Source: Chelativorans petroleitrophicus (GTDB lineage Bacteria > Pseudomonadota > Alphaproteobacteria > Rhizobiales > Rhizobiaceae). Taken from it: a stretch of 64,000 nucleotides of DNA. Location: NCBI RefSeq assembly GCF_025398195.1, contig NZ_JAODNV010000011.1:1-64000 (forward strand), given 5' to 3'. Below the pieces are notes generated by a model. It searched no databases. It was not told the DNA's origin and was given only the letters and a program-made list of their open reading frames with translations. How positions within the stretch are numbered: position 1 is the stretch's first letter; every line of letters starts with the position of its first letter. The position numbers and the translations under genes were made by a program. Below are positions 697-21,344 of the stretch, in pieces.

Positions 697-701
697 GGAA
701 A

Positions 702-6380: not shown

Positions 6381-7385
6381 ATGCAGGGAACTGCCAGAAT
6401 AGTCGGATCATTCGTTACAGCGGCTGTCTTGACGCTTGCCGCAACGCTTGATGCCTCAGCCCAGCTGTCGCGCATCACGATTGGTACCGGGCCCGCCGGT
6501 ACGGCCTATCACCAGATCGGTACAACCGTCTCGGCGGCGTTGCAGGACGCACTCGGCGTTCCGGCGACCGTCCGTCCGTTCAGTGGAACATCCCAGTATC
6601 TGCCGATGCTGCATCGTGGGGAAATCGCGATGGGCATCAATTCTGCCTTGGATGCGCAGGAGGCCTACCTGGGACAGGGCGCCTACGGCCAGCCTATGAC
6701 GGGAATACGGGCGCTCACATTGATCTCCCGCTCGCCCTATGCCTTCTACGTCAAGGCGGACTCAGGGGTGAAGACGCTCGATGAATTGAGGGGGAAACCT
6801 GTCATCACCGAATACCGCGCCATCGCCTCCTTCAATCAGGTTAACGCCGCAGTTCTGGCCACGGCCGGCCTCACACCCGACGATGTCGAGGGTTATACGG
6901 TAGCCGGTATTCCGGAAGCCACACGCGCTCTGGTCGACGATCGGGTTGTCGCCTCAGCCTCCGTTCTCGGAATACCGGCTCTGCGGGAGGCCGATGCCTC
7001 CATTTCCGGTGGCTTACGCGTGCTGCCGTTGGGAGACAAGGAGGATGCCTTGAGTGCCGTGGCGGGCTTTTCGCCCACGACGCTGCAGCCCGGGCCGGCC
7101 TATGTGGGTGTCAGCGAACCGACGCGTGTCGCCCAGTTCGACGTCTTCATGAATGTCGGAGCCAGCATGAGCGAGGACGACGCCTATGCTTTGGCGAAGG
7201 CAATTCACGAGAACTGGGAAAGCATGCAGCAGAATCTACCCATGCTGCGCGGAATAGCGGCTGACGAACTGGCCTCTCTGAATTTCAGCCACCCCTATCA
7301 CGAGGGCGCAATCCGCTACTTCCGCGAAGTGGGGCTTTGGACCGACGTCCATCAGGCACGCCAGGACGAGCTGCTCGCCAACTAG
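6381..7385 (+). CDS. TAXI-family TRAP transporter solute-binding protein
   Basis: The protein has 334 residues and starts with a signal peptide (hydrophobic IVGSFVTAAVLTLAATL, cleavage near ASA). After that it shows the TAXI signature: ITIGTGPAGTAYHQIGTTVS at the mature N-terminus, then a periplasmic-binding fold that closes the substrate site. The open frame runs back to 6294, but ATG 6381 is preferred because GGGAGG lies 9 bases upstream and the signal peptide begins there. The partner membrane protein follows at 7467. Such systems drive uptake of organic acids with an ion gradient. Given the neighbouring operon, the ligand may be a hydroxycinnamate or related aromatic acid, but this is inference. 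Confidence 0.88.
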   Translation: MQGTARIVGSFVTAAVLTLAATLDASAQLSRITIGTGPAGTAYHQIGTTVSAALQDALGVPATVRPFSGTSQYLPMLHRGEIAMGINSALDAQEAYLGQGAYGQPMTGIRALTLISRSPYAFYVKADSGVKTLDELRGKPVITEYRAIASFNQVNAAVLATAGLTPDDVEGYTVAGIPEATRALVDDRVVASASVLGIPALREADASISGGLRVLPLGDKEDALSAVAGFSPTTLQPGPAYVGVSEPTRVAQFDVFMNVGASMSEDDAYALAKAIHENWESMQQNLPMLRGIAADELASLNFSHPYHEGAIRYFREVGLWTDVHQARQDELLAN

Positions 7386-7466: not shown

Positions 7467-9347
7467 ATGATTGCAACCTGCCTCCAGCGCATCTGCCATG
7501 CATTCCTTCTTGTTGGCGGAATCATCTGGGCGCTCAACCTGTTCTCCGTGGCGGGCATTTCCCTTATCGAGGCGGAGTGGTTGGGGCCGTACCTGGGAGT
7601 AGGCATCGCGGCCGCGTTTCTCGGCCATCCTTACGGCAGCAAGGCCGGTGCGCTGGAAATCGTCGCGGCCCTGGCCGCGATTGCCTCCTGGGTCTGGCTG
7701 GCCCTGAACTTCGAATTCTGGATCGTGGACATCGCAGGAGTCACGCCATCGAAATACATCCCGGCAGTCGTTGCGATCGTCCTGTTGATGGAAGCGGTAC
7801 GCAAGGTCTGCGGCCTGTCGATCACCCTGCTGGTCTGGGCACTCATCGCCTACGGGCTTTTCGGCTATCTGCTTGAGCCGCCATTGCAGGCAGACCGCGT
7901 CTCGTTGGAGGCGCTCGCCTTCTATCTCTACTCCGACACCAACGCCATTCCTGGGCTGGTGCTTGCCATTATCGCCTCGATTGTCATTGCATTTCTGCTG
8001 CTCGGCAAGCTGATGGAGGTCAGCGGCGCCACGGCGGCCTTCACCGATCTCGCCCTCGCCTTCATGGGCCACCGGCGTGGCGGACCCGCCAAGGTGGCAA
8101 TCCTGGCCTCCGCCATGTTCGGCTCGATCAGCAGCTCGCCTGTCGCCAACATCATGTCGACAGGAATTGTGACAATCCCGCTGATGAAGCGCACGGGCTT
8201 CCAGGCGCACAATGCAGCCGCAATTGAGGCCGTGGCTTCGACCGGGGGACAGATCAGTCCGCCGGTGATGGGCGCCACTGCCTTCCTGATGGCGGAGTTC
8301 CTCCAGATTGGCTATGGGCAAGTGGTCCTCGCCGCGCTGCTGCCGGCAATTCTCTACTATCTGTGCCTGTTCCTGCAGGTGGACGCCATCGCGGCGCGCC
8401 AGAACTTGAAGGGGCTCGATCGTTCGGAACTGCCACGCTTGAGGCCAACCCTGAAAACGGGCTGGATCTTCATCATCCCGCTTGTCGTCCTCATCTACCT
8501 GATCTTCTGGGGCAATACGACTCCCGGCTTCGCCGCCCTCGTCTCCTCTGCATTGCTGCTGGCATTCGCAGTGTATACGGGACGGCTGCGCAGCCGCGAG
8601 GAATGGGCCCGGCTCATCTTCGGCAGCGGGGAGTCAATCGTTCCGCTGGTGCTGATCGCCGGTGCCGCCGGCGCAGTGGTCGGCATCATGAACATATCCG
8701 GTCTGGGCCAGTCGCTTTCGTTTGTCCTGGTACGCTTGGGTGAAAACTGGGGGCTGCTTGGCATGCTGATCGTGACAGGGCTGTTGGCGATCGTCCTCGG
8801 CATGGGCATGCCCTCAACGGCGATCTATATCATCCTTGCCGCGATCTTGGCTCCCACCCTGGCCGCCATGGGCGTATCGGTTCTCGCCGCACACTTCTTC
8901 ATATTCTACTTCGGTGTGCTTTCCTTTCTTACCCCGCCGGTTGCCGTTTCGAGTTTCGTGGCTGCGGGCCTCGCGGAGACGAACATGTGGAAGACCGGCT
9001 GGGCGGGCATGCGGTTTTCCTTCGTCGCCTATCTCATACCCTTTGTTTGGGTCTATGACCCTGCACTTCTGATGGAAGGTAGCTGGATCGCGACGGGCAT
9101 TGTTGTTGCGACCACAGTCGCGGCAATCATGATCGTCACCAGGGCCATGTCTATCGAAACGGTGCACTGGCGCGGGCGCGTTGTTTATATTGCGCAGTGG
9201 CTGATCGCCATTGCTGTCTGTCTTTCTCCCATACTTCTTGGCGCGGAATCCGTGTGGGCAGCGATCCTCGCAGCAGGAGGAATTAGTTTGTGGTTCTTCG
9301 CCCAGCGAGAACGGAACGCCCGCGCCGCCACGAGCGCGGCCGATTAA
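7467..9347 (+). CDS. TRAP transporter fused membrane protein (DctQM-type, TAXI partner)
   Basis: At 626 residues and almost wholly hydrophobic, this is the fused 4TM/12TM permease that pairs with TAXI binding proteins. The N-terminal part (to about residue 170) supplies the small DctQ-like helices. The rest is the DctM-like ion-coupled translocation domain with conserved segments such as GSISSSPVANIMSTG (about 215-229), STGGQISPPVMGATAFLMAE and GMGMPSTAIYIILA. These are the half-helix loops expected for substrate and sodium binding. It follows its binding protein by 81 bases and ends the hydroxycinnamate/transport block; the next gene is on the opposite strand. Confidence 0.9.
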   Translation: MIATCLQRICHAFLLVGGIIWALNLFSVAGISLIEAEWLGPYLGVGIAAAFLGHPYGSKAGALEIVAALAAIASWVWLALNFEFWIVDIAGVTPSKYIPAVVAIVLLMEAVRKVCGLSITLLVWALIAYGLFGYLLEPPLQADRVSLEALAFYLYSDTNAIPGLVLAIIASIVIAFLLLGKLMEVSGATAAFTDLALAFMGHRRGGPAKVAILASAMFGSISSSPVANIMSTGIVTIPLMKRTGFQAHNAAAIEAVASTGGQISPPVMGATAFLMAEFLQIGYGQVVLAALLPAILYYLCLFLQVDAIAARQNLKGLDRSELPRLRPTLKTGWIFIIPLVVLIYLIFWGNTTPGFAALVSSALLLAFAVYTGRLRSREEWARLIFGSGESIVPLVLIAGAAGAVVGIMNISGLGQSLSFVLVRLGENWGLLGMLIVTGLLAIVLGMGMPSTAIYIILAAILAPTLAAMGVSVLAAHFFIFYFGVLSFLTPPVAVSSFVAAGLAETNMWKTGWAGMRFSFVAYLIPFVWVYDPALLMEGSWIATGIVVATTVAAIMIVTRAMSIETVHWRGRVVYIAQWLIAIAVCLSPILLGAESVWAAILAAGGISLWFFAQRERNARAATSAAD

Positions 9348-9450: not shown

Positions 9451-10641
9451 TTATGCAGGGTCACCTTCTTCTGGCTGGCACGAAAGGCCAAGTTCGGAAA
9501 GTATCTCGTCGGTATGCTCACCGGGCAGGGGCGGTGGTGCGGATACACCGGGTCCATCATGGGCAAAGCGGAAACCCGCGTTGAGAATGGTTGCGCGCGA
9601 GATGGCCGGGTTTGGCACTTCAACCTCAAGCATCAGGTTGCGCCCTTCAAGTTGCGGCAACTTCAGCACCTCGCGCACGGGACGCACCGCGCCAGCGGGT
9701 ACACCCGCTTCCGAAAGTATGGCTTCCCACTCAAGCGCCGTTTTCGTCATGAAGGTCTTTGCAAGTTCCGCCTGCAGTTCCCTGTCATGTGCCATGCGGG
9801 AATCCGGATCTGCAAATCTGGGGTCGGAAAGCAGGTCGGGCCGACCTAGCGCCGCGCACAGCCGCTCATACTGATACTGCTGCACGGCTCCTATGGTTAT
9901 CGCATTCTCGGCGGTTTCGAACGTATCGGCCGTGGGGGCCAGCGAAAAACCGCGATTACCGGTCCGCTTTGGCTCGATGTTGGAGATGACCAGCGGGTTA
10001 ACCACGGACGCCATCATCACCAGCGAAGCGTCGAGCATTGACATGTCGATATACTGGCCGCGCCGTTCAGGATCCCGCTCACGCTGGATATAGGCCGCCT
10101 GGATGGCGAATGCGGCAAGGAGGGCACTGTAGGTATCGACGACAGGAAAGCCGATACGCATCGGCCCACTATCCGGTTCACCCGAAAGGCCCATAAGCCC
10201 CGAAACACTTTGAATGATCTGGTCAATTGCTGGATAGTCGCGCATCGGGCCGTCCTGGCCATAGCCCGAGATCGAACAGAATATGAGACCGGGATTGATC
10301 TCGCGAACCGTTTCATATCCGAGCCCGAGGCGATCGATTACGCCAGGACGGAAGTTCTCGACCATGATATCAGCCGTGGCAATGAGCCGTCGTGCCGCTT
10401 CCCGTCCGAAATCGGTCTTGAGATCAAGGATGATCGATTTCTTGCCGGCGTTGGCACCGATGAACGGCTCCGCCATTCCGCGCAATTCCTTGCGCTGGGT
10501 GTAGTTCCGCAGTACGTCCCCGCCGGGTGGCTCGACCTTGATAACCTCTGCCCCGAGCAAGCATAGGAATTGGGTGGCCAGAGGGCCTGCGATAACATGG
10601 CTGAAATCTGCGACCCGGACGCCTTCGAGCGGTTGTGCCAA
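9451..10641 (-). CDS. Class III CoA-transferase (CaiB/BaiF family)
   Basis: This 396-residue protein has the full family III fold: N-terminal LEGVRVADFSHVIAGP, CoA-contact segment ENFRPGVIDRLGLGYE (about 95-110), and the catalytic Asp at residue 169 in FPVVDTYSALL, the same number as in formyl-CoA transferase. It should move CoA between carboxylic acids through an aspartyl-CoA thioester. The substrate cannot be read from sequence. The gene is preceded, 15 bases before its ATG, by a perfect palindrome that also occurs in front of the operon at 11343, so both are probably controlled by the MarR gene just upstream (10702-11223). Confidence 0.85.
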   Translation of the reverse strand: MAQPLEGVRVADFSHVIAGPLATQFLCLLGAEVIKVEPPGGDVLRNYTQRKELRGMAEPFIGANAGKKSIILDLKTDFGREAARRLIATADIMVENFRPGVIDRLGLGYETVREINPGLIFCSISGYGQDGPMRDYPAIDQIIQSVSGLMGLSGEPDSGPMRIGFPVVDTYSALLAAFAIQAAYIQRERDPERRGQYIDMSMLDASLVMMASVVNPLVISNIEPKRTGNRGFSLAPTADTFETAENAITIGAVQQYQYERLCAALGRPDLLSDPRFADPDSRMAHDRELQAELAKTFMTKTALEWEAILSEAGVPAGAVRPVREVLKLPQLEGRNLMLEVEVPNPAISRATILNAGFRFAHDGPGVSAPPPLPGEHTDEILSELGLSCQPEEGDPA

Positions 10642-10655
10642 TCCTGCTCCTCCGT

Positions 10656-10676
10656 TTAGTTCATCACATGAACTAA
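10656..10676. promoter_or_regulatory. MarR2 operator, copy 1
   Basis: The site is TTAGTTCAT, three bases, then ATGAACTAA: perfect 9-base arms. It sits between the MarR gene and the CoA-transferase gene, both on the minus strand, close to the transferase start. Copies 2 and 3 at 11306-11324 and 13744-13762 share the sequence. Confidence 0.7.
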
Positions 10677-10701
10677 TATGAGGAAGTCTGTCAAGCCGGG
10701 A

Positions 10702-11223
10702 TCAGTCGTCACCTTCTCCGGCAATCGCCGCCGACAATCCGGTACGCTGTGCCTGCCGCTCGCCAAGATGCGCGTATAGCTTATTGAGAAGGTCGAAGAA
10801 CTGCCGTCGCTCTTTCTCGGTGAAGGTTTCAAAGAGCGCGGCATGCTGAGCGGCCACCCGTTCGGAAATTCTTTGGTAGCGCAGCTGTCCCTCTGCCGTA
10901 AGTTGCAAAGCGTTGAAGCGCTTGTCAGCCACCACCTTTGCTCGTTCGATCAAGCCGCGCGCTTCGAGCTCCTTGACCAGCTTCGTAATTGCCGACTTCT
11001 TGAAGACCAGCGTTGCAGCGAGATCGTTCTGAGAAATCCCCGGATTGAGGGCGATGACACTCAAGACCGCGATCTCACCGTGCTCCGTGGCAAGGTCACC
11101 GAAAAATTCCGCATTCTCGGCGCGGATATAGGCGCGCAGGGCGCGTGTCAGGAATGGCAGATTCTCTCGCAGGGAGCCGAGGACCACCCGATCCTGTTGC
11201 CCCCCATCCGATGTACCCGCCAT
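10702..11223 (-). CDS. MarR-family regulator of the CoA-transferase locus
   Basis: The protein has 173 residues with a central winged helix-turn-helix (LSVIALNPGISQNDLAATL, then KSAITKLVKELEARGLIERA, about residues 50-90) flanked by dimerisation helices, typical of MarR. It is divergent from the operon that starts at 11343 and upstream of the CoA-transferase at 9451. Palindromes with one consensus lie before both, so it is probably an autoregulated local repressor responding to a pathway acid or its CoA ester. It shares only family features with the MarR protein at 170-646, and the operators of the two differ. Confidence 0.85.
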   Translation of the reverse strand: MAGTSDGGQQDRVVLGSLRENLPFLTRALRAYIRAENAEFFGDLATEHGEIAVLSVIALNPGISQNDLAATLVFKKSAITKLVKELEARGLIERAKVVADKRFNALQLTAEGQLRYQRISERVAAQHAALFETFTEKERRQFFDLLNKLYAHLGERQAQRTGLSAAIAGEGDD

Positions 11224-11305
11224 GTGCGTCCCCCTCCTTTACTCGATCGCTGACTATCCCTCGCGCCCAAACCTGTCAAACCTGCCAACTTGACGCCCTT
11301 CCAAT

Positions 11306-11324
11306 TAGTTCATAACATGAACTA
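11306..11324. promoter_or_regulatory. MarR2 operator, copy 2
   Basis: TAGTTCAT, AAC, ATGAACTA: perfect 8-base arms in the divergent region between the MarR gene (start 11223) and the operon starting at 11343. One bound dimer could control both directions. The ribosome-binding site AAGGAGGG of the downstream gene follows 7 bases later. Confidence 0.7.
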
Positions 11325-11342
11325 TAGGAAAAGGAGGGATGC

Positions 11343-12467
11343 TTGCCGCACTCATCGTCGCTTCGGTTCGGAGAAGCAGCCGGAACACTACTAGACCGTG
11401 CCTTCGACGCGCGCGATCGGCATCGGCCCAGCGTCCCCCTGCCTCGAATAGGCATCTTCGGCAATGGCTTTCCCGAAACACTGGTTGCCGCTGCAGGTGG
11501 CCTTCCGGTGCATCTTTCGATGGGACGGCTCAGAAGGACGACGGCCATCGACGAGTTCATAGAACCTTTCGTCGACGAGGAAGTCCGTGTCTTTCTCAAT
11601 CGCCTGATGAACGGCGAATTTGCGGACTGCCTTGGGATCATCTTTGCCCGCGACGATGCACCAGCGTTGGTTGCCTATCAGTACACCTCCGAGTGGGTGC
11701 GGCAGGGCCGGGCACCGAAATCCGTTCCGCCGCTGTTCCTCTGGAACCTGGTCCATACCGCAACGCCGGCCGTGATGCACTTTAACGCCCTTCAGGCCGA
11801 AAAACTGTTCGACTTCTTTGAACGGATTGGCCTGAGGAGACCTTCTGATGAAGCGATTGCTGAGGCAGCAGCCGCTGAGGCTGGCCGCCGCCAGGCGCTT
11901 GAACGTCTCGAAACAGCAGGATTGTCCGGTACGACTGCGATGCGTTGGCGTAACGCAGGTCGCTTCATGTCGGCAACCGAACATGCCGACCTCCTCAATG
12001 CCGCCCTTGTGGATACCAAAAGGACCGCGCAAAAGGGTATGCGCATCGGACTGATCGGATCGTCGCTCGCATCAACCGCTTCCTACGAAGTCTTTGAACG
12101 CTTCGGAACAATCGTGTGCGATTGGCAGCCCTGGGGCGCCGTCTGGCCCGGCCCGGGAAACGGCAATGCGACCTTGCCTGAAATCCTGCGCGCAACGGCG
12201 GCCGATCCCTCTTGCCCTCGTATTACGCCAACCACGGCTTACCGGAACGCCCTGCTTCAGGCTCTCGCAAACGCGCGCTGTGACCTCGTGCTCTGCCAGC
12301 TCGCACCGACTGACGACACCTTCGGCTGGGAAATTCCGGCTCTCGCCTCCAGCCTCGAAAGAAGAGCTATCGCCTTCATCAATCTAGGTTTCCGCGACAC
12401 GGATCCCGAAACCTGGCACGCACGCGCCGCAACGCTCATTTCCGCCAAGCTTGAGGCCCGAAAGTGA
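11343..12467 (+). CDS. 2-hydroxyacyl-CoA dehydratase-fold protein lacking usual Fe-S cysteines (first subunit)
   Basis: The 374 residues resemble the HgdB/BcrB-type fold: N-terminal PETLVAAAGGLPVHLSMG (44-61), a middle helical part, then RIGLIGSSLASTASYEVF (234-251), which matches the second Rossmann-like domain. Active relatives hold a [4Fe-4S] cluster with cysteines in CPF, CD and C-terminal CDP-like motifs. Here those places read FVDEEV, ARDDAP and APTDDT, so the ligands seem to be Asp. Remaining Cys (96, 259, 291, 313, 318) do not fit the pattern I know. The start is TTG 11343 after AAGGAGGG. It overlaps the next gene by 4 bases, so the two probably form a heterodimer. No activator ATPase gene is nearby. 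Function is unknown. Confidence 0.6.
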   Translation: MPHSSSLRFGEAAGTLLDRAFDARDRHRPSVPLPRIGIFGNGFPETLVAAAGGLPVHLSMGRLRRTTAIDEFIEPFVDEEVRVFLNRLMNGEFADCLGIIFARDDAPALVAYQYTSEWVRQGRAPKSVPPLFLWNLVHTATPAVMHFNALQAEKLFDFFERIGLRRPSDEAIAEAAAAEAGRRQALERLETAGLSGTTAMRWRNAGRFMSATEHADLLNAALVDTKRTAQKGMRIGLIGSSLASTASYEVFERFGTIVCDWQPWGAVWPGPGNGNATLPEILRATAADPSCPRITPTTAYRNALLQALANARCDLVLCQLAPTDDTFGWEIPALASSLERRAIAFINLGFRDTDPETWHARAATLISAKLEARK

Positions 12468-13741
12468 CAAGCACCTACGTGCCGCTTGAATCCACCAGAA
12501 TTGCCACAGACCATCAACGCGGATGGGCCAAAAGCCTTCGGGCGCAAATTACCTCGGGCGCCAAATACGCCTTCGTCAACGCCGATACCCCGCACGAACT
12601 CTTTCATCACATGGGCCTGCCTATTGTGACCAACCAGTGGTGGTCGGCGATCATCGCGGCAAAGCAGCTCTCGGAATACTACTTCGATTATATGGAAACC
12701 CTTGGTTTCCACGACCGGCTTGCGCGTTATTCCAGCCTTCCTCTCATCGCGGAACTCGAGGGAGATACCGAGCGGCAGCCATGGGGAGGCCTGCCGAAAC
12801 CGTCCATCCTGTGCGCACGCCAGAGCGCCGACGATCATCAGAAGATCTTTTCGCTCTGGTCGGAAAGAACGGGGGCGCCGCTCTTTCTCATTTCCGCGCC
12901 AGCTGTGCCTGACCCGCATCCGGAATGGTGGCGGCTTGCCCGGAGTGACTGGGAAACGCTTTACAGGAGCGACAGGCTCGATCTCATGGTGGCGGAGTTC
13001 GAAGCCCTCATCGCCCAGCTCGAGGAACTCACAGGCCGCTCGTTCGATCATGACGGCTTCGTCCGCTACATGGAAGCGATCAATGAGCAGGAACGCATTT
13101 TCGAGGACATTTCGGAAATCCTCGCTACTGCTCCACGTTGCCCGATCCGGATTTCCGAGCAGATCCCCAACGTGATGATCCCGCAGTGGCATAGGGGATC
13201 AGAATGGGCACTGTCCCACGCGAAGCGTTTTCGCGCCGAGCTTCACGAGCGTGTCAAGGCTGGCGTATCAGTGCTCGAGGAAGAGCGTATCCGCATGATG
13301 TGGATCGGCGCTGGTCTCTGGTTTGACACGAGCTTCTACTCAACCTTCGAGGAAAGCCATGGAGCGGTCTTCGCCTGGTCCATGTACCTTCCCTTCGCCG
13401 CCGACGGCTACATTCGCGAGATCAAAGGCGACTCACTGCGTGCCCTCGCAGCGCGGGTCTCTGCCATGAACGAACAGCTGCACCAGCCACCATGGATCAA
13501 TAGCTGGTTGGTCGAGCAGGCGAAGAAGTACCGGATTGATGTGGCACTGATGCTTATTCCCGAGCATGATCGCTTTTCGGGCCAGGGTTCCCTCTTTGCG
13601 AAGAAGGCTCTGGAGGAGGCGGGTGTTCGCGTCATCGAAGTCTGGTCCGACATGGTCGACAGGCGCAAGTGGAACCGGGACGAGATGTCCGCCCGCGTCA
13701 GCGCCGTTCTCGACGCCGTGCTGGCAGAGAAAGGCGTTTGA
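12464..13741 (+). CDS. 2-hydroxyacyl-CoA dehydratase-fold protein lacking usual Fe-S cysteines (second subunit)
   Basis: The protein has 425 residues and begins with the HgdA/BcrC-like pattern FVNADTPHELFHHMGLPIV (37-55), followed by LPKPSILCARQSADDHQK (110-127) and a C-terminal Rossmann-like half (about 330-425) ending in VIEVWSDMVDRRKW. In Fe-S members the segment after PKP carries a Cys where this protein has Asp123, and the preceding Cys-Tyr-Arg segment is replaced by HDRLARYSS; only Cys117 is near. ATGA-type overlap with the preceding gene indicates co-translation. The pair seems to keep the two-subunit architecture while losing the oxygen-sensitive cluster, so a non-redox or structural role is possible. 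No specific reaction can be assigned. Confidence 0.6.
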   Translation: MTSTYVPLESTRIATDHQRGWAKSLRAQITSGAKYAFVNADTPHELFHHMGLPIVTNQWWSAIIAAKQLSEYYFDYMETLGFHDRLARYSSLPLIAELEGDTERQPWGGLPKPSILCARQSADDHQKIFSLWSERTGAPLFLISAPAVPDPHPEWWRLARSDWETLYRSDRLDLMVAEFEALIAQLEELTGRSFDHDGFVRYMEAINEQERIFEDISEILATAPRCPIRISEQIPNVMIPQWHRGSEWALSHAKRFRAELHERVKAGVSVLEEERIRMMWIGAGLWFDTSFYSTFEESHGAVFAWSMYLPFAADGYIREIKGDSLRALAARVSAMNEQLHQPPWINSWLVEQAKKYRIDVALMLIPEHDRFSGQGSLFAKKALEEAGVRVIEVWSDMVDRRKWNRDEMSARVSAVLDAVLAEKGV

Positions 13742-13743
13742 CT

Positions 13744-13762
13744 TAGTTCATTCGCTTAACTA
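13744..13762. promoter_or_regulatory. MarR2 operator, copy 3 (one degenerate half)
   Basis: The left half TAGTTCAT is identical to copies 1 and 2. After three bases the right half reads CTTAACTA instead of ATGAACTA. It lies just after the stop of the preceding gene and 55 bases before the GTG start of the CoA-transferase at 13817, suggesting a separate internal promoter under weaker control. Confidence 0.5.
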
Positions 13763-13816
13763 CCATCCGGGATTGGGATCGGCGCATAACACTTGCGGAC
13801 AGATGGGAGGAACGCG

Positions 13817-14953
13817 GTGGGTGCATTGGATGGACTGAAGATCGCCGACTTTTCTTGGGTTGGCGCAGGTCCGCGGGCAACCAAAGACCTCGCCGACAAC
13901 GGTGCAACAGTCATCAAGATCGAATCCCGCAAGCGCCTCGATTTGGGCCGCATGTCCCCACCCTTTGCCGGTGATCCGAAGGACGTCGACGGTTCGGCAT
14001 TTTTTGCGCAGACGAACACCTCAAAGAGGAGCGTCACGGTCAACCTGTCCGACCCGCGCGGCATCGAGATCGCGAAAAAGCTCGTGGCATGGGCGGACGT
14101 GGTGGTAGAAAATTTCGGGCCGGGCTTCATGGAGCGCATCGGTTTGCACTATCAGGCGCTTCGGAAAATCAAGCCGGACATAATACTTGCCAGTGTTTCG
14201 GTAGCCGGGAGGACAGGGCCTCTGTCCGGCTTTCGCGGTTACGGCAACTCCGCTGCGGCCCATTCTGGCCACGCCTGGCTGACAGGCGAGCCGGGAAGCC
14301 CACCGCACATGCCTCCCCTCGCCTATGGCGACGTGGTAGCCCCGATGTTTCTCACCGTCGCCATTCTCGCCGCGCTCGAACATCGCGCTCGTACCGGCGA
14401 AGGCCAGCACGTCGACGTCTCGCAGATTGAGCCGATGGTGCACGTCATCGCCGATCTCTACGCCCAGGACGAAGCAAAAAAGACAGGCAACGACGACATC
14501 GACTTCCTGATCCATGGCGTCTTCCCGACACAGGGCGATGACCACTGGATCGCGATCGCCGTCGAGAACGAAACTCAGGCCGAGGCACTCAAGCGCGAGC
14601 TTGGCATTTCGAGCCTAGACCGCGACGCCATCAGCGCTGCGACCAGCGCGCATGACAAGTTCGCACTCTTTGACCGGCTGGCCGCCGCCGGTGTCCCCGC
14701 AGGCCCGGTGCTCGACGGCAAGAACGTCCTCGAGAACCCAGAGCTCGCGGCCGCTGGCCATTTCGTCAAGCTCGACCACCCCGTGCTGGGACCGTCGAAT
14801 ATGCCTGCTCCGCCCTATGTGCTGCACGGCACGCCGGGCAAGGTGAACCGCGCGCCGCGCCTTGGCGAGCACAACCGCGAAGTCTTCATCGACATGCTTG
14901 GCCTCGAAGCGGACGAGATCGAGATTCTAATCGCCGAAGGGTGTCTCGCATGA
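13817..14953 (+). CDS. Class III CoA-transferase (CaiB/BaiF), probable catalytic partner
   Basis: This 378-residue protein has N-terminal LDGLKIADFSWVGAGP, the ENFGPGFMERIGLHY block (about 98-112) and Asp172 in PPLAYGDVVAPM at the catalytic position. The open frame reaches back to 13793, but GTG 13817 is chosen because GGGAGG lies 6 bases upstream. It overlaps the next CoA-transferase-like gene by 4 bases (ATGA), and that neighbour lacks the catalytic Asp, so the two may form a heteromeric transferase with this chain supplying the active site. Heteromeric family III enzymes such as BbsEF are known. The substrate is unknown. Confidence 0.8.
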   Translation: MGALDGLKIADFSWVGAGPRATKDLADNGATVIKIESRKRLDLGRMSPPFAGDPKDVDGSAFFAQTNTSKRSVTVNLSDPRGIEIAKKLVAWADVVVENFGPGFMERIGLHYQALRKIKPDIILASVSVAGRTGPLSGFRGYGNSAAAHSGHAWLTGEPGSPPHMPPLAYGDVVAPMFLTVAILAALEHRARTGEGQHVDVSQIEPMVHVIADLYAQDEAKKTGNDDIDFLIHGVFPTQGDDHWIAIAVENETQAEALKRELGISSLDRDAISAATSAHDKFALFDRLAAAGVPAGPVLDGKNVLENPELAAAGHFVKLDHPVLGPSNMPAPPYVLHGTPGKVNRAPRLGEHNREVFIDMLGLEADEIEILIAEGCLA

Positions 14954-16032
14954 GCATGCTGGCCGCTCTCCGCGTTCTCGAGATCGCTGACGGGCTCACC
15001 GATTTCGGCGGCCGCATGCTGGCGGAGCTGGGCGCCGACGTTGCCGTTGTCCTTCCCGTGACAAAGGCCAACCGTGCCCGCACGCTCGCCTGGCACCACG
15101 GCAAGACGGTCATCGCGCCCGATGACGCCGAGGCGATCCGCGCCCTCGCGGCCAAGGCTGATGTCGTCCTCGACGGCCAGCGCGAAGGCGACCGCTTCGG
15201 CCTCGACAAAGCCGTTTCGGACAAAACCATCTACATCCGTGTTGCGCCCTTCAGCGCCAACGGTCCCTATGCCGGCCGCCCGGCAACGGACCTCACGCTC
15301 TTTGCGCTTTCGGGCCTCATGCACGTCACCGGCGAACCAGACGGGCCGCCCCTGAAATTCCCCGGTCAGCAGGCATATGCCCTGACCGGTATCCAAGCGG
15401 CCACCGTCGCCCTCCTGGGGCTTTACGCCCGTCGGCGTACAGGCAAGGGGCAGAAAGCGGACCTCTCCGCCTTCCAGTGCGCCACACTCTCGAACTACCG
15501 CGAAGCCATCATGTACGAATGGACCGGCCGCATCGGCCGCCGCCGAGGCAACATGCTGGTGCGCGGCAAGTCGGGCGTACGCCAGATCTGGGAGTGCAAG
15601 GACGGCTTCGTTACTTGGTCGATGATCGACAACCCGTCAATGATGCGCGCGGTCGTGTCCGTTATGGAGGAAAAGGGCGCCGCAGGGGAGCTGAGCCATA
15701 TCGACTGGAACAACACCCTTGTCGCGGACACCCCACAGGAAACCATCGAGCGTTGGCAGGGGATCGTCGCTGCCTTCTTTGCCAACCATACGCGCGAAGA
15801 ACTGGGCGCCTGGTCGCTCGAAAAGGGCTGGGGCCTGTCCGTGATCTGCAGCCCGCAGGATGTATGCGACAGCGAACACCTGAAGGCACGCGGCCTTTTC
15901 GTCGAGGTGACAGACGAAGAAACGGGCAAGACCGTATCGGTCCCCGGCCCTCTCTTCCGTTCGGCGCAGATGGATACCCCGAGGCGTACCCTCGCAAAGC
16001 CGGTGCCTGCCTCAAGCTTCACGGGATGGTAA
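14950..16032 (+). CDS. CoA-transferase family III-like protein without the catalytic Asp
   Basis: The 360-residue protein keeps the family fold (RVLEIADGLTDFGGRMLAE at 8-26, SGLMHVTGEPDGPPLKFPG at 121-139, RRTGKGQKADLSAFQ near 161-175). The residue aligned with the catalytic Asp of formyl-CoA transferase is Tyr143, in PGQQAYALTG. It also lacks the usual NFRPG-type segment; the matching region is shorter. The start is ATG 14950, overlapping the previous stop. A non-catalytic subunit paired with the 13817 product is the simplest reading; a changed reaction is the alternative. Codon use looks like its neighbours, and the gene is intact, so it is not a decaying copy. Confidence 0.75.
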   Translation: MSMLAALRVLEIADGLTDFGGRMLAELGADVAVVLPVTKANRARTLAWHHGKTVIAPDDAEAIRALAAKADVVLDGQREGDRFGLDKAVSDKTIYIRVAPFSANGPYAGRPATDLTLFALSGLMHVTGEPDGPPLKFPGQQAYALTGIQAATVALLGLYARRRTGKGQKADLSAFQCATLSNYREAIMYEWTGRIGRRRGNMLVRGKSGVRQIWECKDGFVTWSMIDNPSMMRAVVSVMEEKGAAGELSHIDWNNTLVADTPQETIERWQGIVAAFFANHTREELGAWSLEKGWGLSVICSPQDVCDSEHLKARGLFVEVTDEETGKTVSVPGPLFRSAQMDTPRRTLAKPVPASSFTGW

Positions 16033-16037
16033 GGGTA

Positions 16038-17204
16038 ATGAGCGCGCTCGAAAGGGTCAGGGTCGTCGACTTTTCGAAATTCCTGCCGGGGCCTTATTGC
16101 ACCTGGCTGCTCGCCGACATGGGCGCCGACGTTATCCGCATCGAGAACCCGCGCGAGATCGCCAAGCAAGCCAAGGTGTTCGGCTGGGACCGGCTCTCCG
16201 AGGACGAGCGCAAGGCGCTGCGTGAGGTCGATATCCTGGCCCGCAACAAGCGCTCGGTAATGCTCGATATCGGTGACGAGAAGGCGCAGGAAGCTATTAA
16301 GGCGCTGGTTGCCACCGCCGATATCGTGGTCGAGGATTACCGGCCGGGCGTACTCGAAGGCATCGGGCTAGGCTACGAGTCGCTCAAGGCCGTCAAGCCC
16401 GACCTCATCTATGTGAGCCTCACCCTTTGTGGGCAGACCGGCCCTTATCGAGAAAAGCCCGGACACGATCCGATCGCGCTTGCCATATCTGGCGTTCTCT
16501 CACGCATCGGTGAGAACCCCGACGCACCGAGTTTCCCGGGAGTACCTGCTGCCGACGTCATTACCGGCACCCACGCCGCCTTTGCGACACTCGCCGCCTT
16601 CATTCACCGCCAGCGCACCGGCGAGGGGCGGCATATCGATGTGGCGATGAGCGATTGTGCGATGAGTCTTCTCGTCAACGTACTCTCGCGCCATCCAGAC
16701 CCTTCGACCATTCCTCCACGCGGCACACGTCGCGCCGACACGGGGCTGTGGCGCACGAAGGATGGCTCCTTCATCTGCACCACCGATATGGAACCGCGCT
16801 ACTGGCGCACCTTCTGTGAAACGATTGGGCGGCCCGATTTCATCGAAAGCCAGAATGATGTTGCGCGCCGCAGCGAAATCCGTGCCGAACTCGAGGAGCT
16901 ATTTGCGTCACGCACCCGTGACGAATGGATCAGGATTCTGGAAGCGGCCGGAACGCAGTTTGCTCCGGTCAATGAGATTTCCGAAGCACTAGTTGATCCC
17001 CACCTCCGCGCACGCGGCATGGTTATAGAAAAGCAGGGAACATCCGGCCGCACCGTGCGACAGATTGGACAGCCAGTCCGGTTGGAGGGGGAGACCAGAA
17101 TCCGGAATTTAGGCCATGCGCCCGGCAGCGACACGGAAGAGGTTCTATCGGAACTGGGACTTTCCAAGGAAAAGATCAACCAGCTCAAGCCAAAGGCAAC
17201 CTGA
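16038..17204 (+). CDS. Class III CoA-transferase (CaiB/BaiF family)
   Basis: The protein has 388 residues: N-terminal LERVRVVDFSKFLPGPY, CoA-binding region VEDYRPGVLEGIGLGYE (about 98-114), catalytic Asp173 in GVPAADVITGTHAA, and the C-terminal SELGL segment. All expected active-site elements are present. The frame is open far upstream inside the previous gene, but family alignment and the 5-base gap after the preceding stop place the start at ATG 16038. It is the third consecutive and fourth overall family III member of the locus and is followed after 34 bases by a TRAP transporter operon. The substrate is unknown; a dicarboxylate or branched/aromatic acid taken up by that transporter is plausible. 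Confidence 0.83.
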   Translation: MSALERVRVVDFSKFLPGPYCTWLLADMGADVIRIENPREIAKQAKVFGWDRLSEDERKALREVDILARNKRSVMLDIGDEKAQEAIKALVATADIVVEDYRPGVLEGIGLGYESLKAVKPDLIYVSLTLCGQTGPYREKPGHDPIALAISGVLSRIGENPDAPSFPGVPAADVITGTHAAFATLAAFIHRQRTGEGRHIDVAMSDCAMSLLVNVLSRHPDPSTIPPRGTRRADTGLWRTKDGSFICTTDMEPRYWRTFCETIGRPDFIESQNDVARRSEIRAELEELFASRTRDEWIRILEAAGTQFAPVNEISEALVDPHLRARGMVIEKQGTSGRTVRQIGQPVRLEGETRIRNLGHAPGSDTEEVLSELGLSKEKINQLKPKAT

Positions 17205-17238
17205 CGCGCAGGGATGCCCGAACAGAGGGAGGAGAACC

Positions 17239-18249
17239 ATGACAATTAGATCAATAACCATCGCGCTGCTCACCGCGGTGAGTATGGGTACGGCATCCGG
17301 CGCCGTGGCGGCGGAGTTCGAACTGACTTACTCAACCACCTATTCTCCAACACATCCGTATGGCCAGGCGGATGAAATGTGGATTCAGCGCATCGAGGAG
17401 CAGACCAACGGCCGCGTAAAGATAACCCCCTTCTGGGGTGGTGCGCTCATCAGCAGCCGGGAAGGTATCGACGAGCTCAACGCCGGTGTAGCGGACATCG
17501 CCTACATTGCTCCGATCTACGCGACCTCCGGCTATGATCTCAACCGGCTCACGCCGCAATTCTTCTACGGCTATGAGGACGCTTCCAAGGTTCTCGAGGT
17601 TTATCTGCAGCTCTGGGAAGAATATCCGCAATATGCGGAGGAACTCGATGGCGCCCAGGTACTCGGCTACAATGTGGGCACCCCGATGCATCTGATGCTT
17701 CGGGAAAAGCCCTTTACCCAACTTTCGGACCTCGAAGGTCTCCGTATCCGTTCGGCCGTAGATTATATCGGCGCGCTTACCGCGGCCGGCGCCGAGGGCG
17801 TTACCATGCCCATGACCGAAACCTATCCGTCGCTGCAGCGCGGCGTTCTGGATGGCGTTATCGCTCCTTATGAGGCGCTGAAGTCGCTGAGTTTCGCGGA
17901 GGTGATCAAGTATTATTCCGAACTGCCGCACAGCCGCGGGGCCTATCCCTCGCGTGCAATAAACGCGGCCGCGTGGTCACGCCTGCCTGAGGACATACAG
18001 CAGGTTTTTCTCGATAATATCGATTTCCTCACGCAGAAAACCTACGAACTTGCGCAGGCTGCCGAAGATGAAGGCCGTGCTTACGGCGAGCAGCTTGGCG
18101 TTCAGTTCAACGCCGTAGCGCCCGAGGTCATCGCCGAGTACTCTGCTGCCTTCGAGCCCGCCGCCAGGGAGACTGCAGCGCAGCTCGATGCAAAAGGGCT
18201 GCCGGGCACGGAAATTCTCGACAAGATTCGCGCCGCCATCAAGAACTAG
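17239..18249 (+). CDS. dctP: TRAP transporter solute-binding protein, DctP family
   Basis: The protein has 336 residues and a clear signal peptide (ITIALLTAVSMGTASGAVAA, mature start near AEFEL). The mature part has the DctP fold with the segment LSDLEGLRIRS (about 167-177) that carries the conserved Arg used to clamp the substrate carboxylate. GGAGGAG precedes the ATG at 17239. It is followed by matching DctQ and DctM genes, forming a complete C4-dicarboxylate-type TRAP system of a family that imports organic acids using sodium or proton gradients. The location after four CoA-transferase-like genes suggests it imports the acid that the locus activates. Confidence 0.9.
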   Translation: MTIRSITIALLTAVSMGTASGAVAAEFELTYSTTYSPTHPYGQADEMWIQRIEEQTNGRVKITPFWGGALISSREGIDELNAGVADIAYIAPIYATSGYDLNRLTPQFFYGYEDASKVLEVYLQLWEEYPQYAEELDGAQVLGYNVGTPMHLMLREKPFTQLSDLEGLRIRSAVDYIGALTAAGAEGVTMPMTETYPSLQRGVLDGVIAPYEALKSLSFAEVIKYYSELPHSRGAYPSRAINAAAWSRLPEDIQQVFLDNIDFLTQKTYELAQAAEDEGRAYGEQLGVQFNAVAPEVIAEYSAAFEPAARETAAQLDAKGLPGTEILDKIRAAIKN

Positions 18250-18259
18250 AGCGAAGGAA

Positions 18260-18296
18260 CGCTTTGCTGCCCGGGCAACCCCGTGGCGGCAAAGCG
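18260..18296 (+). other. Intercistronic hairpin between dctP and dctQ
   Basis: A 12-base stem (CGCTTTGCTGCC paired with GGCGGCAAAGCG, one G-U pair) encloses a 13-base loop and has no following U-run. It lies in the 61-base gap after the binding-protein gene. The position matches the hairpin in the TAXI operon and would fit raised stability of the binding-protein message. Confidence 0.5.
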
Positions 18297-18310
18297 GCAC
18301 CGAATAGACC

Positions 18311-18832
18311 ATGCATTTCATTGATACGACTTTGCGACGTATTTGCGCCACAGCCGGCGTAATAGGCATTGCCGCCATTCTCGGCCTTATGGGGCTGACG
18401 GTCATTACCGTGGTGCTGCGTGCCCTGCACATCGCTTTTCCGGGAACATACTCACTTTCTGAGCTTCTGCTGATCCCCGCCGTGAGCATTTCGATTGCCT
18501 ATGCTGCCATGCATAACGACCACACGCGGGCGGTAATCTTCGTAAATCGGATTTCAAACACTAGGCTTCGCCACTTCATTCACGGCCTCATGCTGATCTT
18601 GGGGTCGCTGTTCTGGGCGGTGGTGGCTTGGGCCACCATGCGCGAGGCGATCCGTCGTATGGCACAGAACGAGCTTTCGCCCATCATCGACGTCCCGGTG
18701 GCTCCGTTTCGCTGGGCAATGGCGTTGGCCATCCTCCTTTGCGTGATCGTGCTGCTCTGGCAGGGGTTCAAGCTCCTGAAAGGCATCCCGGTCGAAGATG
18801 AATCTCACCAGTACGCGGACCCGGAAAAATGA
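18311..18832 (+). CDS. dctQ: TRAP transporter small membrane subunit, DctQ family
   Basis: The 173-residue protein has four predicted membrane helices (about 15-40, 50-68, 90-112 and 133-155), the DctQ pattern. It acts as the scaffold subunit binding DctM. Its last codons overlap the dctM start by 4 bases, and it sits 61 bases after dctP. The middle region includes the conserved-type HNDHTRAVIFVNRI loop between helices 2 and 3. Confidence 0.87.
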   Translation: MHFIDTTLRRICATAGVIGIAAILGLMGLTVITVVLRALHIAFPGTYSLSELLLIPAVSISIAYAAMHNDHTRAVIFVNRISNTRLRHFIHGLMLILGSLFWAVVAWATMREAIRRMAQNELSPIIDVPVAPFRWAMALAILLCVIVLLWQGFKLLKGIPVEDESHQYADPEK

Positions 18833-20124
18833 CCGCGCCGACATTCGGCTTGATCGGAATTGTCATCCTGTTCACGTTGATCGGCTTCGGCATGCCGATC
18901 GGCTTTGCGATGGGCCTTGTCGGCTTTGCAGGGTTCGCGTTCCTGGTGAGTCTTGATGCCGCCATCGTGAGGACCGGCGTCACCACCTATAACCTTGCCA
19001 CCAACTACGCCATCGGCACGGTACCGCTGTTTCTTTTCATGGCTCACATCCTCTTCGCGGCTGGTATCGGCAAGGATCTTTTCGACTTTGCCGCCAAGTG
19101 GATTGGCCGCCGGCGCGGCGGCCTGGCAATGGCAACTATCGGTGCTTCGGCTGGATTTGCCTCCGTCAACGCTTCCAGCCTTGCGGCGACAGCGACCATG
19201 GGGCTCATCGCGCTACCTGAAATGCGCAAACACAACTACGGTCTTCCACTAGCCTCGGGCAGCGTCGTTGCTGGCGGCACAATCGGCTCGCTTATCCCGC
19301 CCAGCGGCATGTTTATCATCTACGGCATCCTTACCGAGACTTCGATCGGAAGGCTTTTCTCCGCTGGCATCATCCCCGGCATCCTGCTCGCCATCTTCTA
19401 CATGGTAGCGATCGGCATCTGGTGCCGCGTCGATCCCGGGGCCGGGCCGCGCGGACCCAAATATTCCTGGCGAGAAAAGCTTCTGAGCTTCACCAAGATC
19501 GGCGAAGTCCTCGCGCTCTTCGTTCTTGTCATGGGCGGCATCATCAGCGGCTGGTTTACCGCCACTGAAGCTGGCGCGGTAGGCGCAACGGGGGCCATCC
19601 TCATCGCCCTCGTCCGGCGGCGTCTGACATTTGAAAGCGCCAAAACCGCCATTTATGCCACTCTTAAGACAACCGGCATGATCTTCGGCATCCTTTTTGG
19701 CGCCATGGTTTTCAACAGCTTCGTCACCGTTACCACTATCCCCACGCGCGTCGTCGACTTGGTGGCGAATGGCGACTTCTCACCCATGGTCGTGCTGCTG
19801 CTGATCCTGATAGTCTATTTCTTTCTGGGTATGATCCTCGATGCCTCAGCGATGATGACGCTGACCGTCCCCCTCTTCTTTCCAATCGTCACGTCGCTGG
19901 GCTTCGATGCGATTCTCTTCGGTGTTCTGGTCGTCCGCATGACGGAGATCGCTCTCATCACGCCGCCGGTAGGGATGAATGTCTATGTCCTTTCAGGTAT
20001 CGCCAAAGATATCCCCCTGACCACCATGTTCCGGGGTGCCATGCCATTCGTCGCGGCTGACATTCTGCACGTAACAGCCCTCATCATCTTCCCCGCGCTT
20101 GCTCTCTGGTTGGCCTACCTATGA
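18829..20124 (+). CDS. dctM: TRAP transporter large permease subunit, DctM family
   Basis: The 431-residue protein is very hydrophobic, with the DctM helices and re-entrant hairpin motifs: FASVNASSLAATATMG (about 108-123), GGTIGSLIPPSGMFIIYG (about 144-161) and near the C-terminus ITPPVGMNVYVLSG. It forms the ion-coupled translocation path with DctQ. Both flanking junctions are 4-base ATGA overlaps, with dctQ upstream and the MFS gene downstream, so all are one operon. Confidence 0.9.
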   Translation: MTAPTFGLIGIVILFTLIGFGMPIGFAMGLVGFAGFAFLVSLDAAIVRTGVTTYNLATNYAIGTVPLFLFMAHILFAAGIGKDLFDFAAKWIGRRRGGLAMATIGASAGFASVNASSLAATATMGLIALPEMRKHNYGLPLASGSVVAGGTIGSLIPPSGMFIIYGILTETSIGRLFSAGIIPGILLAIFYMVAIGIWCRVDPGAGPRGPKYSWREKLLSFTKIGEVLALFVLVMGGIISGWFTATEAGAVGATGAILIALVRRRLTFESAKTAIYATLKTTGMIFGILFGAMVFNSFVTVTTIPTRVVDLVANGDFSPMVVLLLILIVYFFLGMILDASAMMTLTVPLFFPIVTSLGFDAILFGVLVVRMTEIALITPPVGMNVYVLSGIAKDIPLTTMFRGAMPFVAADILHVTALIIFPALALWLAYL

Positions 20125-21344
20125 GCGATAGCCGGCGGACGAGCTGGGCGCTGGTCACCACAACCGGCGTACTCACAGGTTTGGGACACGGCTTTGCCGC
20201 CTTTGCGGTTTCCGCCCTACTGAAGCCCCTTGCCGTCGACCTGAATACGGGGCGCGGTACCGTTTCGACCGCCATTGGACTGGGCAGGCTCATCAGTGGA
20301 CTTTCCGCCCCAATCGTAGGGCGCATCACCGACCTCCACGGGCCACGCCTTATTGTGATCGGCGGTATGCTTCTTTCAGCGCTTGGACTTTTCGTCCTTG
20401 CTTTCGTGCGCTCCGAGCTCGAACTTTATATCGCCTGGTCGCTGCTAATTTCGGCTGGCGTAGCGGCAGGTTTTACCGTTGCGCTCGATAAGCTTGTCGT
20501 CGCCAGCGTCGCGCGAAGGCGCGGCATGGCGCTTGCGGTGCGGTTCTCGATATCGGCACTCGTCGCGACGCTGATCGTGCCCGTAGTCAGCGTCATGGTC
20601 GAAGTTGTCGGCTGGCGTCAGACATGCATCGCCTGGGCCGCCATCACCCTCCTGTTGATCCCGATTCCGGCAATCTGGTTTCGGCGGGCTCCGGTTGCGG
20701 AATGCGGAACACTGGAGCTCCGGGATCACGTCGAAGCGAACACCTTGGCCGCGCCATTCAAGGTTCGATCCTTTCTGGGGAACATGAATTTCTGGCTTGT
20801 CGCCACGGCACTTTGCGCGCAGGCATCCGTTACCACCGGGCTTTCAGTGCACCTCCTGCCCTTAATGACTGACTACGGGCTCGATCCGGTATTTGCAGGA
20901 ACACTCTTGGGCGCCACGATCCTCATGACCATTCCGGTTCGTCTGCTGGCCGGCTATATCGCCGACCGGTTGGACCCGAGGCTTCTTCCCAGCATGCTTA
21001 GCGGCCTCCTCCTCCTCGAGGGCCTCGCCATTTGCAGCTTCCCGCTTGCGCCGGGCCTTCCGGCCATGCTCGTTGTTGCATGCGCCCTCGGAATCGCCGC
21101 CGGCGCCCCCATGGTTCTCGTGCTTGTCATCTGCAACGAACTGTTCGGCCAGTCCAGATTCGGCACTGTCCAGGGAAGTCTGATGATGATCCAGTTTCCC
21201 GGAACCACGCTGGCGCCAGCCCTGGCAGGCTATATATACGATTTCACTGGGTCGTATGTCGCGGTTATCGCCGGCTTTGGAATTCTGTTGATTCTTGGCG
21301 GTTCGATGCTTGGCTTCGTACGGATGCCGGATCAACGCCGCTAG
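20121..21344 (+). CDS. MFS transporter, monocarboxylate/oxalate-formate type
   Basis: The protein has 407 residues and twelve predicted membrane helices. The loop between helices 2 and 3 reads GRITDLHGPRLIVIGG, the MFS signature, and the general pattern resembles the oxalate/formate and monocarboxylate branch. It is translationally coupled to dctM by a 4-base overlap. Having both a TRAP importer and an MFS carrier in one operon suggests two carriers for related acids, or an importer with an exporter. The direction of transport cannot be told from sequence. Confidence 0.8.
   Translation: MSDSRRTSWALVTTTGVLTGLGHGFAAFAVSALLKPLAVDLNTGRGTVSTAIGLGRLISGLSAPIVGRITDLHGPRLIVIGGMLLSALGLFVLAFVRSELELYIAWSLLISAGVAAGFTVALDKLVVASVARRRGMALAVRFSISALVATLIVPVVSVMVEVVGWRQTCIAWAAITLLLIPIPAIWFRRAPVAECGTLELRDHVEANTLAAPFKVRSFLGNMNFWLVATALCAQASVTTGLSVHLLPLMTDYGLDPVFAGTLLGATILMTIPVRLLAGYIADRLDPRLLPSMLSGLLLLEGLAICSFPLAPGLPAMLVVACALGIAAGAPMVLVLVICNELFGQSRFGTVQGSLMMIQFPGTTLAPALAGYIYDFTGSYVAVIAGFGILLILGGSMLGFVRMPDQRR

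Follow-up and report, generated by a model that had tools for sequence, protein, structure and literature searches.

Enzymes of the 2-hydroxyacyl-coenzyme A (CoA) dehydratase (HGD-D) fold are known to work as ATP-activated radical machines that are sensitive to oxygen, and removal of a non-acidic beta-proton normally needs their radical cluster. The HGD-D pairs HadBC and FldBC are encoded with a class III CoA-transferase, the former together with HadI and the latter with FldA and FldI, and in the Fld system the CoA-transferase and the HGD-D dehydratase together lead to cinnamoyl-CoA. For the related BzdNO enzyme, a published account (PMC11971306) describes a [4Fe-4S] cluster held in BzdO by Cys95, Cys128 and Cys380, acid/base catalysis by Glu65 and His131, and an [8Fe-9S] cluster bound by BzdN via six cysteines. 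Here we consider a locus (positions 9451-21344) in a window of 64,000 nucleotides, the whole stretch of DNA analysed, from Chelativorans petroleitrophicus (contig NZ_JAODNV010000011.1), in which profile searches find a MarR-family regulator, four class III CoA-transferase genes (C1 to C4), an HGD-D pair (HgdS and HgdL), a DctPQM importer and an MFS carrier, the names HgdS, HgdL and C1 to C4 being coined in this analysis. All of these genes lie where a previous sequence-only reading of the same DNA had placed them. The HGD-D pair appears to have lost the cysteines that hold the clusters of its relatives, and we put at about even the chance that the locus is a MarR-controlled catabolic module working via thioesters, in which HgdS-HgdL is an acyl-CoA enzyme that acts without reduction and may tolerate O2.

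Iron-sulphur ligand positions in HgdS and HgdL

Both proteins belong to the HGD-D fold, with PF06050 scores above the cut-off of 28.4 bits (Table 1) and Foldseek E-values of 4e-17 (HgdL) and 3e-16 (HgdS), and their genes are the sole PF06050 matches in the genome (E<=0.001). The AlphaFold model of HgdL (pLDDT 91.1) is best matched by the alpha chains of MbdO, BzdO and HadB, with a query TM-score (TMq) of 0.76-0.82 for the first nine chains, and that of HgdS (pLDDT 94.3) by BzdN (8s02_B, TMq 0.78), the beta chains of BzdN and HadC leading its matches.

Related loci were found by searching genome contigs with HgdL, which gave 276 relatives, and locus counts refer to the best 80 of these 276 (handles beginning with L and G are our own for loci and genomes). 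Alignment of BzdO to the HgdL profile places A87, A122 and D369 of the window protein at the positions of the ligands Cys95, Cys128 and Cys380, so that all three cysteines of the alpha cluster are gone, and H125 at that of His131. Glu65 of BzdO lies outside the alignment, and the glutamate that MbdO and HadB have in this motif corresponds to Q58, which is present in 54/54 of the HgdL rows compared, comprising the window and 53 of the 80 loci. The family forms a gradient from canonical cysteines over relocated CxxC/CxC pairs to none: three of the 54 rows retain all three canonical cysteines, 30 keep C87 and C122, have no cysteine at 369 and carry additional C90 and C124 (C87-x2-C90 and C122-x-C124), and 21, including the window, have cysteine at none of the three positions and S90, D/E124, H125 and D369 instead. 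The distant L006 and L009 from one genome, with identities of 21% and 24% in the matched region, carry E58, C87, C122 and C369, which provides a check on the ligand mapping; of the outgroups, L007 and L017 were only partly aligned and L006 was read from a larger alignment. Judged by these alignments, HgdL has almost certainly lost its iron-sulphur ligand cysteines. The window-type state occupies one side of a 100/100 branch of the tree, and the order and number of the cysteine losses are uncertain because its outgroup branches are very long and it carries a long-branch warning.

In HgdS, the counterparts of BzdN C36, C73, C263, C293 and C327 are G40, D78, P263, C291 and D324, C100 being unaligned. 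None of the 49 HgdS rows has cysteine at positions 40, 78, 263 or 324, and no HgdS column within 94-130, where a counterpart of C100 was sought, has cysteine in more than 5 of the 49 rows. The sequence-only reading had called the pair cysteine-poor, and cysteines are indeed few (5 in the 374 residues of HgdS and 2 in the 425 of HgdL), but the more specific statement is that the iron-sulphur ligand positions are lost, and this in a graded manner across the family.

The same reading had noted that an activator ATPase is missing, and the activase profile TIGR00241 has indeed no match in the window's own genome. PF01869 gives three matches there, two of them weak and one over the cut-off (L098), and this BadF-like gene was rejected as an activase, as it is flanked by SIS-like and ABC-ATPase-like genes and its translation reads as an amino-sugar kinase. 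The activase scan of relatives covered 38 of the genomes of the 80 loci, of which 7 match TIGR00241 at E<=1e-3 and 33 have no match over the cut-off, such a match being found in 0/12 window-type and 0/14 sphingomonad-type genomes. Accordingly, none of the features that mark radical dehydratases and class I benzoyl-CoA reductases was found in full, neither the alpha-subunit cysteines nor the beta-subunit ligands nor, in the own genome, the activase, and an ordinary radical dehydratase was rejected for the window clade because ligand cysteines and activase are both absent. A variant of this explanation, in which an ordinary radical dehydratase or reductase employs relocated ligands and an unlinked activase, could draw on the three rows with all canonical cysteines, on the 30 rows with the C87-x2-C90 and C122-x-C124 pairs and on the five of 38 related genomes in which an activase does exceed the cut-off (L045, L047, L056, L061 and L067). 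We nonetheless regard it as extremely improbable, since the window clade has no cysteine at the three HgdL positions, its own genome has no TIGR00241 activase, and HgdS has cysteine at just one of five comparable ligand positions. Elsewhere, a Rhizobium leguminosarum plasmid (L017) has an HGD-D gene pair followed by two annotated activases, together with genes for a bile acid:sodium symporter, rhodanese-domain proteins and a sulphate permease, and a glycyl-radical enzyme gene is found near the system in two genomes (L047:17122-19587 and L066).

With the alpha-cluster ligands, the full beta-cluster site and the activase missing, the known reductive radical chemistry would be unavailable to HgdS-HgdL, and we lean somewhat towards the view that its catalysis is non-reductive. 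In the window's clade the spot of the cluster is taken by the invariant D/E124-H125 and D369, and it is a speculative notion that these residues form a replacement metal site. It could be argued that the pair is rather a pseudoenzyme, serving as a scaffold that binds CoA esters or as a carrier of thioesters while the CoA-transferases do all the chemistry. The loss of iron-sulphur ligands in both subunits, the replacement by Q58 of the glutamate found in MbdO, HadB, L006 and L009, and the presence of CoA-transferase genes in 75 of the 80 loci are all in agreement with this, but HgdL is strongly conserved, with 64 invariant columns in 54 rows, many of them W, R, E or H, quite unlike a mere scaffold, and we consider a pseudoenzyme rather improbable.

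Recurrence, CoA-transferases and probable regulation of the locus

The sequence-only reading required the genes to recur together elsewhere, and a neighbourhood check bears this out. Among the 80 loci HgdS is found in 78, a class III CoA-transferase in 75, DctM in 58, DctP in 57, a CapA-like gene in 44, MarR in 39, a TonB receptor in 27 and CocE in 26, and of the 58 loci that span 19 kb or more, 57 have HgdS and all 58 a CoA-transferase; the two loci without HgdS are a metagenome assembly in which many frames at this place are short (L045) and a stretch of only 3.4 kb (L082). These counts rest on hidden Markov model scans and not on greedy open reading frame (ORF) calls, since the ORF clusters include antisense artefacts (c36 versus P450, c8 versus HgdL). 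C1, C2, C3, C4, MarR, HgdS, DctP and DctM, the whole scored core, occur all together in 19/27 window-type loci; of the incomplete ones, L021 and L038 are short stretches, and L035, L039 and L041-L044 miss members in about 21 kb. Chance neighbours are ruled out by this recurrence of the gene set. The sphingomonad-type loci typically have the order CocE-TonB receptor-CapA-DctQM-HgdS-C3/C2-HgdL-DctP-(hydrolase)-C1, and the types from Acidobacteria and Bacteroidota typically have a single CoA-transferase class (C6), an MFS carrier, esterases and often CapA, with no DctPM adjoining. On annotated plasmids HgdL is labelled '2-hydroxyacyl-CoA dehydratase family protein' and HgdS 'hypothetical protein'.

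The nearest relative, Nitratireductor aestuarii (L018), has an HgdL 90% identical to that of the window, and the same sequence is found in a same-genus genome (G014), which assigns the window's genome to the genus of N. aestuarii. HgdL has a strong match in 3/16 same-genus genomes, the own included, one of which (G002) is only 44% identical, and at E<=1e-20 it is found in 4/385 genomes of a class-wide sample, likewise including the own. Genes for tRNA-Asp (21602-21678, minus strand) and tRNA-Val (21867-21942, plus strand) lie directly behind the locus, and together with the patchy occurrence within the genus they may mark an insertion site.

Several further genes accompany the relatives. The CapA-like protein (PF09587, e.g. 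L015:8132-9232) has as its nearest solved chains MslH, a lasso-peptide epimerase (8gq9; PMC10406935), the resemblance to this CapA-fold enzyme amounting to an NF038314 match of 96 bits where 700 are required. No PF09587 gene occurs in the window's genome, and CapA can therefore not be essential here. Cytochrome P450 genes lie near several loci (L020:5610-6878, minus strand; L013:574-1782), and their nearest solved relatives indicate no substrate. Beside a Bacteroidota-type locus, L050:1296-3640 holds two adjoining genes of 514 and 268 residues without a Pfam match, which the clustering finds again in 7 and 6 loci.

The four class III CoA-transferase-like genes of the sequence-only reading all match PF02515, but C3 is without the catalytic aspartate, the role of which is known from work on formyl-CoA transferase. 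When 211 CoA-transferase domains of the window and related loci were classed by this residue, it was present in 59/59 C1-class, 23/23 C2, 23/23 C4, 15/15 C6 and 35/36 C2n domains (the last with one X), and absent from 21/21 C3, 32/32 C3n and two lone L047 domains. C3 is thus probably, as far as its sequence indicates, a partner subunit rather than a catalytic transferase. An ORF with two CoA-transferase domains is found in 32 of 85 scanned loci (the window, 4 plasmid loci and 80 contigs), the C3 counterparts of the sphingomonad type being such two-domain ORFs, and HgdS and HgdL are joined in one ORF in 5 of 10 further stretches (L129-L133; 741-823 codons). These C3-C2 and HgdS-HgdL fusions support heterodimers, and it is very likely that HgdS-HgdL and C2-C3 would each form one. 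For C1 the nearest solved chain is YfdE (4hl6, 244 bits), which indicates no substrate.

Shared operators had also been proposed, and this is supported by an operator-like palindrome that occurs in two exact copies in the locus and a third time with two mismatches (Table 1). Three sites at up to 3 mismatches in the window compare with 0.05 expected, and the 17-base core AGTTCAT-N3-ATGAACT, with at most 1 mismatch, is matched in the whole genome at sites 1 and 2 only. When up to 4 mismatches are allowed, the 27 related loci L018-L044 have 46 sites, as against 3.0 in block-shuffled sequence, and in ten relatives (L018-L026 and L028) the sites occupy the same three intervals, C1-MarR, MarR-HgdS and HgdL-C2. 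We infer that MarR binds these palindromes and controls the locus. The best NCBIfam match of MarR is the Saro_0803 family, at 65 of the 200 bits required.

Table 1. Features of the locus, its operator-like sites and the adjacent operon
Feature	Position	Strand	Profile match or sequence
C1, class III CoA-transferase with catalytic Asp	9451..10641	-	PF02515, 391 bits
Operator-like site 1, between C1 and MarR	10657..10675		exact palindrome TAGTTCAT-N3-ATGAACTA
MarR-family regulator	10702..11223	-	PF12802/PF01047
Operator-like site 2, divergent promoter region MarR/HgdS	11306..11324		exact palindrome TAGTTCAT-N3-ATGAACTA
HgdS, beta-type HGD-D subunit	11343..12467	+	PF06050, 53.5 bits
HgdL, alpha-type (substrate-binding) HGD-D subunit	12464..13741	+	PF06050, 136 bits
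Operator-like site 3 (weaker), between HgdL and C2	13744..13762		2 mismatches
C2, class III CoA-transferase with catalytic Asp	13793..14953	+	PF02515, 299 bits
C3, class III CoA-transferase-like, without catalytic Asp	14950..16032	+	PF02515, 160 bits
C4, class III CoA-transferase with catalytic Asp	16026..17204	+	PF02515, 314 bits
DctP, TRAP solute-binding protein	17239..18249	+	PF03480, 130 bits
DctQ	18311..18832	+	PF04290, 52 bits
DctM	18829..20124	+	PF06808, 287 bits
MFS carrier, monocarboxylate/oxalate-formate kind	20121..21344	+	NCBIfam L-lactate MFS, 87 of 320 bits required
p-Hydroxycinnamoyl-CoA hydratase/lyase	513..1568	+	NF006588, 411 bits (cut-off 276)
ADP-forming acyl-CoA ligase-like gene	1572..3662	+	NCBIfam acetate-CoA ligase, 372 of 1200 bits required
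Aldehyde dehydrogenase	3664..5100	+	PF00171, 540 bits
Acyl-CoA dehydrogenase	5118..6269	+	PF00441/PF02771
TAXI-type TRAP solute-binding protein	6294..7385	+	TIGR02122, 149 bits (cut-off 84)
Fused TRAP permease	7467..9347	+	TIGR02123, 488 bits (cut-off 321)

The genes are joined by overlaps, with ATGA, as had been described, at C2/C3, DctQ/DctM and DctM/MFS, and with GTGA at HgdS/HgdL and ATGGTAA at C3/C4. The ORF of C3 was listed from 14941, the ATGA start lying at 14950, and DctP has an open frame of 17116-18249 with its most likely start at 17239. The solute-binding protein and the small and large permeases of a TRAP transporter are all present, with their genes in order, and the nearest solved chain of DctP (4n6d, 100 bits) pointed to no substrate.

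The neighbouring operon and the proposed function

An operon at 513-9347, which the sequence-only reading had left out, is convergent with C1 and ends 103 bases beyond it. Its first gene belongs to the p-hydroxycinnamoyl-CoA hydratase/lyase profile, and its ligase-like gene is 43% identical to a ligase adjoining the Croceicoccus locus. The earlier notion that the substrate is activated by CoA transfer alone holds in so far as there is no acyl-CoA synthetase gene within the locus itself, but ligase-like, hydratase/lyase and acyl-CoA dehydrogenase genes are found in this adjacent operon. Hydratase/lyase, aldehyde dehydrogenase and ligase likewise adjoin the system in Croceicoccus (L014), in Rhodospirillales TMPK1 (L046) and in genome G683, and in G577 the hydroxycinnamate block is on the contig of HgdL, about 26 kb away. 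In the class sample the hydratase/lyase is found in 4/4 HgdL genomes, the window's included, as compared with 19/385 overall, and in one related family in 18/18 HgdL genomes as compared with 57/249 overall (Fisher p 2.8e-13 by genome and 1.1e-8 by genus, both ignoring phylogeny). By type, it is found in 12/14 sphingomonad-type genomes and in 1/3 of L045-L047, the total being 14/38.

From these genes we consider it quite likely that the locus is a catabolic thioester module. In the mechanism we propose, the TRAP importer would take up a carboxylic acid, and an effector, the acid or its thioester, would bind MarR and cause it to leave its operators. C1, C4 and the C2-C3 heterodimer would then transfer CoA to acids and from one acid to another, and the HgdS-HgdL heterodimer would convert the acyl-CoA without reduction, by such chemistry as would remain to it, namely acid/base (perhaps metal-assisted) elimination, isomerisation or C-C cleavage. 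More weakly, the substrate may be a plant-phenolic acid released from hydroxycinnamate esters, with a product that would feed hydroxycinnamoyl-CoA or a neighbouring pool. For the family as a whole, a hydroxycinnamate-related substrate falls slightly short of an even chance, and for the window's clade it is distinctly less probable. The import and thioester part of the sequence-only reading is retained here, but its single organic acid is unproven, and in many relatives esterases, a TonB receptor and a CapA-like protein come in addition, which suggests esters as a possible starting material in those.

A number of observations weigh against this interpretation. The hydratase/lyase is present in only 1/12 window-type relatives, in addition to the window itself, and at the threshold used it was found neither in the genome of the nearest relative (L018, identical with G445) nor in any of 9 genomes of the acidobacterial, bacteroidotal or betaproteobacterial type. 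The sphingomonad type thus shows a strong link and the window's clade a weak one, the co-occurrence statistics ignore phylogeny and come without control by an unrelated plant-degradation marker, and a general lifestyle on plant matter could be the cause of the association. As regards the enzyme, the pattern D/E-H-D is confined to one clade of high identity and its conservation is for this reason weak evidence of function; a group of fused HgdS-HgdL proteins and a paralogous group are also without the cysteines and have other residues in place; and HgdS keeps one ligand-position cysteine, C291, in 17/49 rows. Finally, there are the activases of five related genomes mentioned above, and 10/27 window-type loci have no operator-like site within 4 mismatches.

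The uneven distribution of the hydratase/lyase leaves room for two other accounts of the substrate. In the first, the module would serve a non-phenylpropanoid acid, for instance a hydroxylated dicarboxylate, and its link to the hydratase/lyase would reflect nothing but a plant-matter lifestyle. We give this account something under one chance in three, for C1 resembles the dicarboxylate transferases YfdE and SUGCT, DctP is a TRAP binding protein, an MmgE/PrpD gene is nearby in 5/80 loci and the hydratase/lyase is rare in the window clade, and yet the hydroxycinnamate block directly adjoins the system in the window, L014, L046 and G683 and is on the same contig in G577. In the second, which follows the logic of Fld, a CoA-transferase would pass CoA from hydroxycinnamoyl-CoA to an aryl-lactate such as the dihydroxyphenyl-lactate half of rosmarinate, HgdS-HgdL would dehydrate the aryl-lactyl-CoA to hydroxycinnamoyl-CoA, and the hydratase/lyase would cleave the product, no ligase being needed since the CoA cycles. 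Here the enzyme classes are the same two as those of FldA and FldBC, the hydratase/lyase accompanies HgdL in every HgdL genome of both samples, and esterases, tannase and a TonB receptor are found in part of the relatives. The radical cluster normally required for removal of the beta-proton is however absent, and with the hydratase/lyase so infrequent among the window-type genomes this second account seems to us less likely still.

Our interpretation of HgdS-HgdL as a non-reductive acyl-CoA enzyme can be taken one step further. As a redox-free descendant of the radical dehydratases and reductases, HgdS-HgdL might perform difficult acyl-CoA chemistry in air, such as dehydration of a 2-hydroxyacyl-CoA that stems from a plant phenolic ester, without an iron-sulphur cluster, the cluster having given way first to relocated CxxC/CxC pairs and then, in the window's clade, to D/E-H-D; we put this forward as a bold idea that is rather improbable. 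The HgdS-HgdL branch could yield a simple, air-stable acyl-CoA enzyme, and if our interpretation is true, some annotations as '2-hydroxyacyl-CoA dehydratase' in activase-free genomes would be misleading. The locus moreover represents a testable operon, with operator, transporter, transferases and enzyme, for a carboxylic acid that possibly derives from plant phenolic esters.

Comparison with known systems

The sequence-only reading knew of no described operon with this combination of genes, and in agreement with this our searches of the open-access literature turned up neither an account of such a locus nor one of an HGD-D branch that has no cluster. Among transporters, the DctPQM proteins share all three components with known TRAP systems, the nearest solved DctP reaching only the modest score given above. 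The CoA-transferases recall BbsEF, the benzylsuccinate CoA-transferase (9fn0), which is composed of two unlike class III subunits, as C2 and C3 would be, and both chains of which are matched by C1; in our case the C2 and C3 genes overlap and relatives have two-domain ORFs, although the structure comparison covers C1 only.

With the Had and Fld systems, which comprise the (R)-2-hydroxyisocaproyl-CoA dehydratase HadBC and the phenyllactyl-CoA dehydratase FldBC, the locus has the combination of a CoA-transferase and an HGD-D pair in common, but it is without the activase and the cluster ligands, so that the three parts of those systems are not all present, and the logic of Fld suits these genes but is at odds with the absence of the cluster. 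Closest in structure are BzdNO and MbdON, the benzoyl-CoA and 3-methylbenzoyl-CoA reductases, which are formed from the same alpha/beta HGD-D pair, act on CoA thioesters and are among the best PDB matches. Set against the BzdO residues named in PMC11971306, HgdL has A87, A122 and D369 for the cysteines and Q58 for the glutamate and keeps H125 at the place of His131, while HgdS is without the full beta site and the window's genome without a TIGR00241 activase. A widespread branch that lacks the beta site, mostly lacks an activase and has lost its alpha ligands stepwise suggests that the fold of these radical enzymes has here been taken over for other chemistry.

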